Positions 15,938 to 26,026 of a stretch of DNA of 56,653 nt are shown here, piece by piece. The notes beneath the pieces were generated by a model, which saw only the letters and a program-made list of their open reading frames with translations, had not been told where the DNA came from and ran no database searches. How positions within the stretch are numbered: position 1 is the stretch's first letter; every line of letters starts with the position of its first letter. The translations under genes and the position numbers were made by a program. Source of the DNA: an uncultured Cytophagales bacterium (GTDB taxonomy: Bacteria > Bacteroidota > Bacteroidia > Cytophagales > Thermoflexibacteraceae); NCBI GenBank assembly GCA_938039675.1, contig CALHUI010000018.1:1-56653 (forward strand). The letters are read 5' to 3'.

Positions 15938-16252
15938 CTACCCTTTCATGGCTGAAATTTTATCCAAAGAAACCGTCCCAAACCGGCGATACACTTGGTA
16001 AGCAATAGCAAGTGCCAGCGCAGACTCAGCGGCTGCAATGGCAATAATAAAAAGTGTAAAAATTTGTCCCTCAACAGCCTGCGATTCATTATTCCAAACG
16101 GCAACAAGATTGATATTGGCAGCATTCAGCATCAGTTCCAGCCCCATCAATACGCCGATGATGTTGCGTTTGGTAATCGTAACAGCCATCCCGATACAGA
16201 AAATCAAGGCTGAAAGAATCCAGTAATGAAGCGGAGTAAGGGTTTGCCACAT
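15938..16252 (-). CDS. nuoK: NADH-quinone oxidoreductase subunit K
   Basis: The 104-residue product has three membrane helices and the NuoK signature: KRNIIGVLMGLELMLNAAN, with the conserved membrane glutamates (in GLELM and AAAESAL). It is part of the proton-pumping arm of respiratory complex I. I chose ATG 16252 over an upstream TTG (16273). A -7 element (TATTTTTG, complement of 16275-16282) lies just upstream, so the gene may have its own promoter. Unusually, no other nuo gene is adjacent; the rest of complex I must be elsewhere. Confidence 0.93.
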   Translation of the reverse strand: MWQTLTPLHYWILSALIFCIGMAVTITKRNIIGVLMGLELMLNAANINLVAVWNNESQAVEGQIFTLFIIAIAAAESALALAIAYQVYRRFGTVSLDKISAMKG

Positions 16253-16393
16253 AGCGTTAATGTAAGTAAGCAAGCAAAAATACGCTGATATTTAGGAATT
16301 CGGATTTAAAAAAATCAGCGAAAACCGTGTTGTCCGCAGTAAAATAATCTGTATGCCGGTGTCAAACTACTCAATTGTCCACTGTAATTTTTG

Positions 16394-21343: not shown

Positions 21344-21646
21344 TTACTTGCGAGCAGGTTTGTGTAAAATTTTTTGCCACAGGGCCTTTTCCTTGTTCCA
21401 AAAGAATCGGAATTGCCCGAGCAGCGTTCCGTAAATGAGTAATAACAGCTGGTATGAAGGAAACAGGAGGAGCAGGTACGTAACGGTTTTTATCCACATG
21501 GGAGTGGCTTCTGTATAGCCCAACAGTTGGAAGACGAACTTCCGCACCCACACTACCGAACTGCCGGCAAGTGTGAAGGTCAGCAAAACGGCAAGCAGTT
21601 GGGCATTGCTTGTGATTTGCCATTTGTTTTTCAATCGCTCAAACAT
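21344..21646 (-). CDS. DUF6787 small membrane protein
   Basis: The 100-residue product has an N-terminal basic segment (FERLKNKWQI), two membrane helices (about 18-42 and 50-74) and the motif LLGQFRFFWNKEKALW after the second helix. This matches the DUF6787 family of Bacteroidota, which has no known function. It starts 11 bases after the cytochrome c gene ends and is clearly in the same operon. Confidence 0.7.
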   Translation of the reverse strand: MFERLKNKWQITSNAQLLAVLLTFTLAGSSVVWVRKFVFQLLGYTEATPMWIKTVTYLLLLFPSYQLLLLIYGTLLGQFRFFWNKEKALWQKILHKPARK

Positions 21647-21657
21647 AGGCTTGTCGG

Positions 21658-23001
21658 TTAGTTGATGTGCAAAATGTATTCGGAAAGAGCTTGCAGTTCA
21701 CCATCGGAAAGTTGGGCAAAGCCGGGCATCTGGGGCGCATCGCTGCGTTTTTTTCCGGGAGCTTTAATCCACTTTTTGAGTCCTTCGGGGTCGTTTTTAT
21801 AAATGCTGACCATTTCGGTAACGGGCGGCCCGACCACTTTAACATCTTGCGCATGGCAGGCACTGCAATTTTTCTGAAAGACGGCTTCGCCTGCACCGCC
21901 GCCCGCATCGGCAAGCAGTTCGCCGGTCGGGTTGTTTTGCATGGCTTGGGCGTGTTGTGCTATTAGTTCGCGGTAGGCGGCAGTTTTTTCCGCCATCAGT
22001 TCGCGGTGCGGCTCTATGGCATTAGCGCGGTAGATGTGTCTGCCGCTGCCCAACACCAGTACGGTTACCAACATCAGGGAAGCCACCTTGCCGAAATGCC
22101 TGTCCAAATGAACGGGGTTAGGCGAAGTCATATCTTGCCACATCCAATACAGCGCAGGGGCTACTAAGGCTACACCCGCCAGCAGCGTAATTACCAGCGT
22201 AGGGCTGATGCCTTTGGAAGGCAGCGTGCTAATCAGAATCGGACCGACCAATGCCACCTGAACCGCCAGCGCACCGAACGCCAGCCCGTAGAACATTTTG
22301 CGCACTTGGTAGCGGTTCAAATCGGGCAGTTTTTCCTCAAACTCATACGATTGCCGACCGAAATACCAAAACAGGAACAGCCCCGTAACTGCCAACGTGC
22401 CGACGGTGAAGAACAGATAGCGCGGCAATACGTTAGGCAACATCAACGCTTCCAAAAAGCCCTTCACCGTTCCCCATTTTTCGGGGAAAAGCATCAGGTT
22501 TACGTTGGTCAGAAAAATAAACGGAATGAACAGGAAAATCAGTGCCGATACGCCGATGATGGCTAAGTGCAATTCTTTTTGCTGTGCCAACTTTTCCCAA
22601 GAATATTTATGGGCATAGGTCAGCAGGAAAGCCACCGTAACCAACGGAATAATCATAATCCACGCAAGCCCCGTGAGGGCATTGGCAGAGTAGAAATAGA
22701 TGGTGTACAGCGTATTGATAGCCAGCAGCGGGGCAACGCCCAGCACTACGGCAAGGCTTTTGTTTACTGTAACGGTTTTGGCAATTTCATGCGCCAGCGC
22801 GTCGTAGCCTTTGTTGCGCAAGCCTTTCCACTCAAACCAGAGGGTGAGCAGCACACCGCCGACCATCAAATCCACAAAAATGATGTGCAGTAGGAACGAA
22901 AGCACCAGCACGCCCACCAAAAACCATTCGGGCATGGGCAGAGGCAAGTCCAAATCTTTCGGAACGGGAACTTGCGCTAATATGAACAGCAAGGTTTTCA
23001 T
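21658..23001 (-). CDS. bd-oxidase-like membrane protein with C-terminal cytochrome c domain (second subunit)
   Basis: The 447-residue protein has about eight membrane helices (from residue 27 to about 330), then a periplasmic monoheme cytochrome c domain with CSACH (Cys379, Cys382, His383) and a later MPGF segment offering a Met ligand. The first helix region FLLHIIFVDLMVGGVLL has a His placed like the early heme ligand of CydA. It follows the first subunit gene by 14 bases. It is probably paired with that protein as a two-subunit membrane complex; whether it binds b or d hemes cannot be told. No quinol-binding GRQPW motif is present. Confidence 0.75.
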   Translation of the reverse strand: MKTLLFILAQVPVPKDLDLPLPMPEWFLVGVLVLSFLLHIIFVDLMVGGVLLTLWFEWKGLRNKGYDALAHEIAKTVTVNKSLAVVLGVAPLLAINTLYTIYFYSANALTGLAWIMIIPLVTVAFLLTYAHKYSWEKLAQQKELHLAIIGVSALIFLFIPFIFLTNVNLMLFPEKWGTVKGFLEALMLPNVLPRYLFFTVGTLAVTGLFLFWYFGRQSYEFEEKLPDLNRYQVRKMFYGLAFGALAVQVALVGPILISTLPSKGISPTLVITLLAGVALVAPALYWMWQDMTSPNPVHLDRHFGKVASLMLVTVLVLGSGRHIYRANAIEPHRELMAEKTAAYRELIAQHAQAMQNNPTGELLADAGGGAGEAVFQKNCSACHAQDVKVVGPPVTEMVSIYKNDPEGLKKWIKAPGKKRSDAPQMPGFAQLSDGELQALSEYILHIN

Positions 23002-23015
23002 GGCTCTTCAAAAAA

Positions 23016-24518
23016 TTATTGTTTCAAAATGGCTTGTGTGTTGCTTTTTTCGGCAAGTTGCTTGTTGTTGCGCTCACTTTCTTTGCGGGCGAGGATGCGT
23101 TCGGAAAGCTGTTGAATCTCTTCGCGGGTTGTTTGTATGGGTGTTCCGGCAGTTTGCACGCCCTCTATGCTTTCAGGATAGACCTGCAACTGCGCAATGT
23201 ATGCTACCAATGCGTCTAACTCTTTTTCATTGCCGGGGAAGGGCGGCATATAATAGCGAGCATTGTGCATGTTTTTGATGTAGTTTTTCATCGCTTCTTG
23301 TGGGAACGGCTGCCCCTTGCCGCCGTACATGCGGTCAAATACCGAAACGATAGAGTTAATACCGCTTGTGGTATGGCAGCGGCTGCATGCTACCATGAAC
23401 ACATCTTTACCGGCTTCCACCTTATTGGCTGCGGTAACTTCGCGGTGCTTCACGTAGGTAGCAAATTTGAGCACACCTTCTTTTTGCAAGAGCGGGTATT
23501 CATCTACCCGTATGCCGTTGGAATACATGTAGTTGCCGATAACGTAGGGTTTGCGGATAAATTCGCGGATGCGCTCAAAGATGCCCGCAAAGCCCAGCAT
23601 CACTACCACGGGGACTACGTAGGCGTAGGCAGGCACTTGCTGCGGCTTCCAACGGCTTGCCAGTGCCACGATGAAGGAAACGCCCGGCGCACCGAAAATG
23701 AACTTGGTCAGCAGGTTGTACCAATCCTGAAAGTCTTGCGTACCAACTGCAACGGCCATGTTGCCAATCATCAGCGTAGGGATAACTTTGTAGTACCACA
23801 GCGAAGCCGCCAACGAAAACGGCATCCAGAACAACATCCAGCCACCCAAGAATCGCAAGGCTTTGTAGCGGATTTCTTCGCCTTTTTTGGTGAAAACGAT
23901 AGTCAGGAAAAGCCCCATTGCACCCGCCATTACCATTGCCAACGGTGTGCGGAAGGCAAGCTGCGGCAAATAAATCGGGTTAGTGAAGCCATTTACCAAC
24001 GAACGTTCGGTCAGCCAGTTGCCTGTATCCATCATAAAGCCCAAAATGCCTACGATGATTGCCATAGTAAACCATGAAGCAATACTTAGGCCTATGCCAA
24101 AGAGAATGTGCTTGCCTTTGCTGCGGAAACTTGCATTGGATTTTTTCCATGTGAGGAAATAAATCAGAATCAGTACAACTTCGGTAACAAATACAATCCA
24201 TTCGGTAAACCATGCAAAGAAAAACACGCGAATTAGGCTGCCAATAGAATAGGGGTTGATAAGTGAAGAAGACAGCCAGATGCCTACGCCCGTCATTGCG
24301 CCGATAGTAGTGGTAATAACAAAGCCTACAAACATGATTTTGTAAGCCAATTTATCCCAGCGCTCATCCTGCGTTTTAAAGCCGAGCCATTCCATAAAAG
24401 TTACCATAGGAATGAAACCGACCGCCAGTGCGTGATTAACTAAGACGTGCAAAATAGCGATGATGGCTATTAGCACGCGATTGTTTAAAAAATCAAGGTG
24501 AAATATAGGAAAGTCCAT
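23016..24518 (-). CDS. CydA-like membrane protein fused to cytochrome c (first subunit)
   Basis: The 500-residue protein has an N-terminal multi-helix part resembling subunit I of cytochrome bd: an early helix with His24 and His29 (ILHVLVNHALAVGF), and a helix with paired acidic residues Glu106 and Glu113 (AWFTEWIVFVTEVV), like the proton-channel glutamates of CydA. The C-terminal part is a monoheme cytochrome c with CSRCH (Cys378, Cys381, His382) and YMPPF with a Met. The classic Q-loop GRQPW motif is missing, so it may not use quinol directly. Comparative work describes heme-c-bearing relatives of bd oxidases. It is the first gene of a four-gene operon. Confidence 0.78.
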   Translation of the reverse strand: MDFPIFHLDFLNNRVLIAIIAILHVLVNHALAVGFIPMVTFMEWLGFKTQDERWDKLAYKIMFVGFVITTTIGAMTGVGIWLSSSLINPYSIGSLIRVFFFAWFTEWIVFVTEVVLILIYFLTWKKSNASFRSKGKHILFGIGLSIASWFTMAIIVGILGFMMDTGNWLTERSLVNGFTNPIYLPQLAFRTPLAMVMAGAMGLFLTIVFTKKGEEIRYKALRFLGGWMLFWMPFSLAASLWYYKVIPTLMIGNMAVAVGTQDFQDWYNLLTKFIFGAPGVSFIVALASRWKPQQVPAYAYVVPVVVMLGFAGIFERIREFIRKPYVIGNYMYSNGIRVDEYPLLQKEGVLKFATYVKHREVTAANKVEAGKDVFMVACSRCHTTSGINSIVSVFDRMYGGKGQPFPQEAMKNYIKNMHNARYYMPPFPGNEKELDALVAYIAQLQVYPESIEGVQTAGTPIQTTREEIQQLSERILARKESERNNKQLAEKSNTQAILKQ

Positions 24519-24661: not shown

Positions 24662-26026
24662 ATGTTAGAAAAATTTGAAGCCCTTTGCGTGGCATTCAGC
24701 GACTTTGCATGGGGCTACCATTTAGTGGCTTTACTGGTCGGCGGCGGTATTTTCTTTGCCATCTATTCGGGGTTTAAGCCCTATCTCTACTTGGCACATG
24801 CCGTTAATATCCTGCGCGGCAAATACGACGACGAGGACTCCCCCGGCGACATCAGCCACTTTGCAGCCCTTTCTAGTGCCATTGCCGCTACGGTGGGCAT
24901 GGGCAACATCAGCGGCGTAGCAGTTGCCATTGCCACAGGCGGACCGGGGGCGTTGTTTTGGATGTGGGTAAGCGCATTTTTCGGTATGGCTATCAAATTT
25001 TTTGACTGTACGCTCGCTATTATGTATCGCGGCAAAGACACCGAAGGCAACATCCAAGGCGGACCGATGTACATCATCACCGAAGGTTTGGGGCAGCAGT
25101 GGAAACCCTTGGCGATTTTCTTTGCATCGGCAGGCATGATTGGCATGTTCCCCGCTTTTCAGGCAAACCAACTCACGCAAATCATCCGCGAAGTGGTGCT
25201 GTTGCCCAACGGCTGGGCTTCGGCAGACCCTTTTACCTCTAACCTCTTCACAGGCATTGTGATTACGGTGTTGGTGTCCTTTGTCATTTTCGGCGGTTTG
25301 CAGCGCATTGCCGATGTGGCTTCCAAACTTGTGCCTACAATGGTGGTGATGTACGTGGCTTCCGTTCTGTTTGTGATTGTAAGCAACATAGAAAATGTCC
25401 CTGCTTCTTTTGCGCTGATTTTCAAGGATGCCTTTTCGGGGGATGCCGTGCTGGGCGGTGCTTTGGGCGCGCTCATCCTGACGGGCGTAAAGCGGGCGGC
25501 ATTTTCCAACGAAGCGGGTATCGGGACGGCACCGCTGGCACACGGGGCAGCCAAAACCACCGAACCCGTCCGAGAAGGGTTGGTTGCCATGTTCGGACCT
25601 GCGATAGATACCCTTTTGATTTGCACCATGACCGCACTTTCCATCATCGTAACGGGCGTTTGGCAAAACCCGAAAAGCAACGGTGTAGCCCTGACGCTGG
25701 AAGCCTTTCAATCAGCCATGCCAGTCTTTGGGCAGTACGTACTGATTGCCTGCGCCGCCATCTTTGCGCTGACCACGCTGTTTACCTATTCTTATTTCGG
25801 CGGCAAGTGTTTCGGCTATTTGTTTGGTGCTAAGCGGCAACATTGGTACAACTATCTCTACGTCGGCAGCATCATCATGGGCGCGGTGGCTTCGCTGAGG
25901 GCAATGGTTGGGCTGATTGACGGCGCTTATGCACTGATGGCACTGCCCAACATGTTTGCCGCACTGATGTTAGCCCCCAAAGTCAAGGCTGCCATGAACG
26001 ATTATTTTCAACGGATGGGGAAATGA
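24662..26026 (+). CDS. alanine/glycine:cation symporter (AGCS family)
   Basis: The 454-residue protein has about ten membrane helices and the AGCS signature regions: MGNISGVAVAIATGGPGALFW in the first third, then GGPMYI, and AFSNEAGIGTAPLAH in the middle. Family members bring alanine, glycine or related amino acids into the cytoplasm with Na+ or H+. It overlaps the lycopene cyclase gene by four bases, so the two share a transcript although no functional link is evident. Confidence 0.93.
   Translation: MLEKFEALCVAFSDFAWGYHLVALLVGGGIFFAIYSGFKPYLYLAHAVNILRGKYDDEDSPGDISHFAALSSAIAATVGMGNISGVAVAIATGGPGALFWMWVSAFFGMAIKFFDCTLAIMYRGKDTEGNIQGGPMYIITEGLGQQWKPLAIFFASAGMIGMFPAFQANQLTQIIREVVLLPNGWASADPFTSNLFTGIVITVLVSFVIFGGLQRIADVASKLVPTMVVMYVASVLFVIVSNIENVPASFALIFKDAFSGDAVLGGALGALILTGVKRAAFSNEAGIGTAPLAHGAAKTTEPVREGLVAMFGPAIDTLLICTMTALSIIVTGVWQNPKSNGVALTLEAFQSAMPVFGQYVLIACAAIFALTTLFTYSYFGGKCFGYLFGAKRQHWYNYLYVGSIIMGAVASLRAMVGLIDGAYALMALPNMFAALMLAPKVKAAMNDYFQRMGK

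Follow-up and report, generated by a model that had tools for sequence, protein, structure and literature searches.

By the usual division, terminal oxidases are either cytochrome c oxidases, which use copper, or quinol oxidases, which do not, and the question raised here is where two adjacent genes of an uncultured Cytophagales bacterium belong. The genes lie on contig CALHUI010000018.1 of assembly GCA_938039675.1 (the window, meaning the whole stretch of 56,653 nucleotides). Gene A (23016..24518, minus strand, 500 amino acids) encodes a CydA-type subunit and gene B (21658..23001, minus strand, 447 amino acids) a CydA'-type paralog, each product having eight membrane helices followed by a C-terminal cytochrome c domain. 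The pair is likely to be a CydAA'-like, copper-free cytochrome c:O2 oxidoreductase. Homology, fold, ligands, loss of the quinol site, paralogy and neighbours were computed, and we infer O2 as the substrate, the direction of the electrons, the formation of a complex and a regulation by copper in this organism. If this is true, a cell could retain its quinol:cytochrome c step, which CydAB bypasses, even once copper is exhausted.

A is a genuine CydA relative within the cytochrome bd superfamily. As A fails the Pfam model of CydA, this link must rest on profiles, structure or intermediate sequences. In a one-sequence phmmer search against solved structures, residues 11-197 of A matched Geobacillus CydA (5doq_A) with an E value of 7e-10, and the same chain was matched by A profiles of 6 and 57 relatives, with E values of 2.4e-9 and 1.8e-9, respectively. 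The gap left by A was closed by two divergent relatives found with its profile (E 4e-79 and 1e-81), since both, when tested, exceeded the cut-off of Cyt_bd_oxida_I (63.6 and 74.4 bits; cut-off 26.2) and thereby supply an intermediate-sequence link. When the membrane parts were compared with hhalign, the heme-c parts of A and B having been removed beforehand, A matched CydA with a probability of 65.7 (E 6e-5) and CydB with a probability of 0.3; the reference sets consisted of relatives plus the E. coli sequence and contained duplicate rows (19 rows for CydA, 13 of them distinct). The AlphaFold model of A (mean predicted local distance difference test score, pLDDT, of 83) has eight membrane helices, and in Foldseek its ranks 1-13 were all bd-oxidase chains (CydA-type at 1-7, CydB-type at 8-13), six of them at E ≤ 0.001 and the best being 5doq_A (E 9.4e-6). 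An NrfD- or PsrC-type fold was rejected, as the first alternative complex III chain had rank 14 (E 0.44) in the list of A and rank 18 (E 0.14) in that of B. The first-pass annotation had suggested the CydA resemblance and had named a lack of profile similarity or an unrelated NrfD- or PsrC-type fold as what would speak against it; sequence, profile and fold all led to CydA, and bd chains outranked those of alternative complex III.

The residues expected of a bd-type site were traced in 57 aligned A sequences, and those of its partner in 51 aligned B sequences. In hhalign and HMMER alignments, H24 of A fell on CydA H19/H21, E106 on E99/E101 and E113 on E107/E108, and these residues were kept in 57/57, 57/57 and 56/57 sequences, respectively, the exception being an Asp; the early histidine and the glutamate pair had been read in the same way from the single sequence. 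H24, E106 and E319 were also kept in nine further loci (L116-L124). E319 itself is present in 57/57 sequences, within a motif of A (RExxRKPYVIG) that was matched by eye to AExGRQPWIL of CydA, in which E445, R448 and P450 do not vary across 19 rows (13 distinct sequences); the corresponding profile segment lay below significance. This placement suggests that E319 may be the heme b595 ligand of A. The features of the quinol site are missing, as had been noted for the Q-loop. The position of the heme b558 ligand H186 is occupied by R190 in 57/57 sequences, and the linker between helices 6 and 7 has about 11 residues in the model of A (about 8 in B), which leaves no room for K252 and E257 of the CydA Q-loop; K252/E257 and H186/M393 are invariant in the CydA set (19 rows, 13 distinct). 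An identity as a canonical quinol oxidase CydAB (qOR) was therefore rejected, the Q-loop, the H186 ligand and the CydB partner all being missing.

At the other end of the protein, the heme-c residues C378, C381, H382 and M424 of A were kept in 57/57 sequences, and one CxxCH was found in the A of every locus surveyed, divergent loci aside. The motifs reported earlier, CSRCH at residues 378-382 of A (23373..23387, minus strand) and CSACH at 379-383 of B (21853..21867, minus strand), were recovered by translation of the DNA and agree with Pfam cytochrome c domains in A (residues 366-441) and B (residues 370-443), which were the only domains above the cut-off; NCBIfam gave sub-threshold cytochrome c matches alone. 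The earlier count of eight or nine membrane helices was settled at eight in each model, with helix 3 of B short and broken, and the ninth was not recovered. In the proposed mechanism, A would bind two hemes (b, d or o) of a bd-type oxygen-reducing site through H24, E106/E113 and probably E319. It would have lost heme b558 along with the quinol site, and its periplasmic C-terminal heme c would serve as the electron entry.

B is, on the residue and profile comparisons, a CydA-type paralog, and A/B a CydAA'-like arrangement. The membrane part of B matched CydA with an hhalign probability of 74.5 (E 3e-5) and that of A with a probability of 91 (E 1e-6). An identity of B as CydB was rejected (probability 0.6, against 74.5 for CydA), and no PF02322 (CydB) was found in the organism's own genome. 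The paralogy of the two subunits, proposed from the outset, is thus borne out, both matching CydA and neither CydB. The AlphaFold model of B (mean pLDDT 91) has eight membrane helices, and its Foldseek ranks 1-9 were bd chains, the best being 7oy2_C (E 8.4e-4). H39, G48, R194, R321 and R325 of B were each kept in 51/51 sequences, so that the early His-Gly pair pointed out before (H39/G48) is both present and conserved. The CxxCH of B (C379, C382 and H383) was found in 40/51 sequences and fell in a gap in 11, one from Thermus and ten mostly alphaproteobacterial by title; the heme-c domain of B is thus not general to the family. The residue matched by eye to E319 is H in 37, Q in 12 and E in 2 of the 51, from which B may bind a heme of its own. 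B would then take the place of CydB, and its second heme c may extend the wire in this lineage.

The two genes occur together almost throughout. Searches located A in 86 loci and, in all but two of them (84), B as well; in these two (Thermus and Methylosinus plasmids) the next annotated gene aligns with B at 23-24% identity. With start codons chosen by rule, B came after A at a distance of at most 43 bp in 75/84 loci and overlapped it in 22. A short frame lies between A and B at L089:4304-4786 and L090:7286-7906 and ends in one hydrophobic helix (roughly at least 50 amino acids); it might be a small CydX/CcoQ-like subunit. At L061:7409-9419 (a Sphingobacterium metagenome-assembled genome), the frame of A lacks the first ~27 residues, and a 205-residue frame just upstream on the opposite strand also matches A, the result of an assembly error or a rearrangement.

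The electron donor was approached through the organism's own genome (34 contigs, completeness 100). Two COX1 genes were found, together with one NrfD gene within an alternative complex III-cytochrome oxidase operon that was recognised by gene order and size, its COX1 and NrfD genes being those tested by family. Neither a bc cytochrome b nor CydAB was found in searches of this genome. Given the presence of alternative complex III and the absence of the other two, quinol electrons likely pass through alternative complex III and cytochrome c to A/B, which would work beside the two heme-copper oxidases. The first-pass annotation had allowed that the pair takes electrons from a periplasmic cytochrome or gives them to it; the first half was retained, and we infer that it takes them.

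A second line of evidence on the donor came from divergent operons. A divergent A was found in seven genomes of one family of the phylum sample, and in the six that were read (G154, G200, G208, G212, G310 and G360) a cytochrome b gene adjoined A in 6/6 and a Rieske gene was present in 5/6, while the fragment of the remaining genome was too short. In both loci with wider DNA (L126:7244-11462 and L131:4295-8511), the genes followed one another as B'-Rieske-cytochrome b-A; three cytochrome b and three Rieske proteins (those of L129 included) were tested with Pfam and the rest were found by tblastn. Such an operon could possibly encode a one-piece quinol:O2 chain, in which a bc complex is joined to a bd-like cytochrome c oxidase. 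The listed surroundings of L126 and L131 contained no further CxxCH protein, which suggests that cytochrome c1 is replaced there by the heme c of A. G025 has a HiPIP gene placed between its A and B genes; with the adjacent cytochrome b and Rieske genes, it gives the strongest hints of cytochrome c-level donors. The divergent loci L125 and L128 gave no Rieske or cytochrome b match.

Other divergent loci showed further variants. L119-L124 contain the same kind of operon as L126 and L131. At L129:4268-8398, also of this kind, the A-like protein lacks H24, E106, the E319 residue and CxxCH, and has the look of a structural subunit without heme, next to a Rieske/cytochrome b pair. At L125:7940-10627, A continues into a long C-terminal extension that resembles MtrC/MtrF-type domains in Pfam, giving eight CxxCH in all (L118/L125), a fusion that might connect to extracellular electron transfer.

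The neighbourhood of A was compared by clustering in the window and 86 loci, mostly up to about 8 kb from A, with one representative per cluster, plus a second SCO1, tested with Pfam. Fifty-three loci were assigned to Bacteroidota (50 by title and L089-L091 by kinship) and 33 to other groups. The 53 Bacteroidota loci contained an AraC regulator in 34 cases, a protein with a cysteine pattern in 33, SCO1 in 23, YHS in nine, a TonB receptor in eight, MbnP in eight and MauG in six; the MauG-type partner of MbnP is named MbnH. At least one of SCO1, YHS, MbnP and MauG was present in 26/53, with 0.1-7.7 kb between the start of A and the closest such gene. In 23/23 SCO1 loci, SCO1, the cysteine-pattern protein and AraC followed in this order, upstream of A and on the same strand, sometimes with other genes between them. 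As a control, 62 strong SCO1 genes (E ≤ 1e-15) were counted in about 110 Mb (20 hand-picked genomes of these loci), by which about 0.5 would be expected by chance in the 0.81 Mb of loci against the 23 loci seen, a comparison that is not a probability, the loci sharing descent. The cysteine-pattern protein (e.g., L058:6570-6947) is a membrane protein of ~126 amino acids with a conserved CiNRF..ip.C.G.CyL and a PP end; the one example tested had no Pfam match. It is a candidate metal-binding partner of the copper genes.

Outside Bacteroidota, a response regulator with a Fis-type helix-turn-helix (HTH) was found in 10/33 loci, with a histidine kinase in eight of these ten and GGxxNPF, the RegB quinone motif, in 7/8 of the kinases; the regulators are RegA-like. 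TonB receptors and MauG were each found in 3/33. Pfam was run on 102 neighbour proteins of 28 loci, drawn from 166 proteins of 37 loci; the recurring domains were response regulator, kinase and Fis-type HTH (6 members each) and MauG (2), and of the 87 families obtained, the 25 most frequent included no copper family. Methanobactin genes are annotated near the A/B operon of the Methylosinus plasmid. The neighbours across the family suggest that A/B would act as a respiratory fallback when copper for the heme-copper oxidases is short.

These data also bear on what else the complex could do. It is improbable, but conceivable, that the same complex with the same cytochrome c donor reduces NO, peroxide or another small oxidant instead of O2: sequence cannot fix the substrate, the hemes of the site may be b-type only, and the eight CxxCH of one divergent A hint at other electron partners. 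However, the site ligands of A are those of bd oxygen reductases, the RegA-like regulators (10/33 non-Bacteroidota loci) and SCO1 neighbours fit terminal oxidases, and no nitrogen-oxide family was among the 25 commonest in the Pfam scan described above. A role as a copper or redox sensor or an assembly factor, in which the membrane hemes would sense O2 or the redox state and no respiration would take place, appears decidedly improbable. It would explain the linkage to copper chaperones and two-component systems, with RegBA-like pairs and AraC, SCO1 and MbnP genes as neighbours, and the ligand-free A-like protein of L129 implies that the fold can serve without hemes. Nevertheless, H24, E106 and E319 are kept in 57/57 sequences and in L116-L124, the heme-c motif is present in the A of every locus surveyed (divergent loci aside), and the strong induction of the related MCA1187 with falling caa3 looks, in the available text of PMC4831470, like the replacement of one oxidase by another. 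A quinol:cytochrome c reductase, passing electrons from an unrecognised quinol site through bd-like hemes to heme c in partial analogy to alternative complex III, is very improbable: although A is weakly similar to the C and F subunits of that complex (Foldseek E 0.44-2.4) and the electron direction cannot be read from sequence, bd-oxidase chains match A far better (E 9e-6), A lacks the Q-loop and b558 ligand, the genome already has an alternative complex III, and the divergent operons already encode a Rieske protein and cytochrome b, next to which another quinol site would be superfluous.

The A and B genes are followed by a third. The gap between A and B is 14 bp and that between B and a small DUF6787 gene (21344..21646, minus strand, 100 amino acids; Pfam E 1.3e-25) is 11 bp, and because of these short spacers the three genes probably form one operon. 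In eight hand-picked genomes, a DUF6787 gene was present in 8/8, with a second copy directly after B in 4/4 genomes with A/B (G000, G002, G010 and G025) and a single copy in 4/4 genomes without A/B (G001, G003, G006 and G007). In the two genomes inspected, the surroundings of the other genomic paralog showed no consistent link to respiration. The DUF6787 protein encoded after B is a candidate for a third subunit or an assembly factor. At its far end, A is flanked by a sodium:alanine symporter gene (24662-26026) on the opposite strand, and a NuoK-type gene (NADH dehydrogenase chain 4L; 15938-16273) is found on the operon's strand, about 5 kb beyond the operon.

The family is common but patchy. 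When one genome per species was scanned, at least 591 pattern matches were obtained, at least 559 of which encode relatives; among the best 80 of the 559, with taxa taken from record titles, 50 were from Bacteroidota and the rest included Planctomycetota, Alphaproteobacteria, Methylococcaceae, Acidobacteria and Zixibacteria. The gene also occurs on plasmids of Agrobacterium (54% identity), Thermus and Methylosinus, and a plasmid search with B returned Agrobacterium and three records matching the cytochrome c domain only. Closer to the window, 5/39 related genomes (its own included) gave a match, one being a 60-residue fragment (E 8e-4), and the gene was present in 2/4 genomes of the same genus. 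In the phylum sample, 16/296 genomes matched at E ≤ 1e-20, three with the close type (its own included) and 13 with the divergent type. A branch that is dispensable and can be transferred would be expected to show such a patchy spread. The size of the family (at least 559 relatives) and the cultured strains among the loci, from Flavobacterium, Chitinophaga and Pedobacter, make the question directly testable.

Several observations weigh against a copper-free cytochrome c:O2 oxidoreductase. Pfam Cyt_bd_oxida_I (PF01654) matched neither A nor B and had no match in the whole genome, the Foldseek superpositions were loose (best template modelling, TM, scores of 0.43-0.60 for A and B; A on 5doq_A with TM 0.52/0.60 and a root-mean-square deviation of 6.7), B had a single Foldseek match at E ≤ 0.001, and the match of E319 to CydA E445 comes from a low-scoring segment and a motif aligned by eye. 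As regards copper, none of the seven neighbour families was present in 13/53 Bacteroidota loci (four with less than 2.3 kb upstream), SCO1 was near A in 0/33 of the other loci, and linkage to SCO1 could mark copper excess equally well. No copper gene and none of these families was found among the neighbours of A in the annotated part of the window, nor in L091, a 97% copy of the locus, so that a copper role in this organism is putative; its two MbnP genes lie away from A/B. A genome of the same genus has A/B plus CydAB. The comparison of MCA1187 with A is one of architecture. To our knowledge, no enzyme of the A/B kind has been purified.

A wider reading can be offered tentatively, at somewhat less than even chance. 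In it, A/B would be the core of a widespread copper-sparing branch found across many phyla and on plasmids, wired directly to the bc complex or alternative complex III, both subunits contributing heme c domains, and turned on with SCO1, MbnP/MauG and TonB receptor genes when heme-copper oxidases are unmetallated; the second DUF6787 protein would be its third subunit or help in its assembly. Three points were not seen in print, namely the copper genes around A, the operon of bc type and the DUF6787 gene that accompanies A/B.

Members of the OR-C family, which reportedly was described by Murali, Gennis and Hemp in 2021, carry heme c. In the available text of PMC10839748, PMC13189123 and PMC11707229, OR-C is a named clade of the bd superfamily, distinct from the quinol-binding qOR. 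The literature naming OR-C with cytochrome bd contained no OR-C biochemistry in the parts available. A 'cytochrome cbd' was postulated in 2015 as a copper-independent cytochrome c oxidase for MCA1187 of Methylococcus capsulatus; the gene was up 28.3-fold in copper-limited cells while the caa3 signal fell, and the text places the detection of the protein in the inner-membrane fraction of copper-limited cells only, a table also listing the outer membrane (PMC4831470, available text). This is the sole expression evidence found for this kind of enzyme, and among the matches listed, with most subscription papers outside the search, PMC4831470 was alone on the subject; no copper-linked bd-type cytochrome c oxidase in Bacteroidota was named in titles or abstract starts among the matches listed. 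The first-pass view that the reaction of such proteins is not settled holds, although it overlooked that a function had been postulated in print in 2015. A/B thus belong to a known, apparently uncharacterised kind of enzyme.

MCA1187, as described in the available text of PMC4831470, resembles A in its eight membrane helices, its C-terminal CxxCH, the positions of CydA H19 and E99/E108 and the lost quinol site, being without H186, M393, the Q-loop and helix 9. MCA1186 and MCA1185 were proposed there as its complex partners; MCA1185 is a separate diheme cytochrome and that text does not call MCA1186 CydA-like, whereas B of the window is, by profile comparison, a CydA paralog and itself carries a heme c; the window locus also differs in having no copper gene. 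By its features alone, a CydA core without the quinol site and with a fused CxxCH domain, A fits the cytochrome cbd/OR-C type. A functional parallel is given by Bordetella, in which CydAB is required for growth under copper limitation (PMC12914433, available text). The OR-N CydAA' of Nitrospinota and Nitrospirales likewise consists of two CydA-type paralogs, with cytochrome c thought to be the donor, but it occurs in other phyla and the available text of PMC10839748 and PMC12342949 mentions no fused heme-c domain. Canonical CydAB (5doq, E. coli CydA) shares with A the core helices and the ligands of the heme pair, whereas A/B have no Q-loop, b558 ligand or CydB, and have heme c added.

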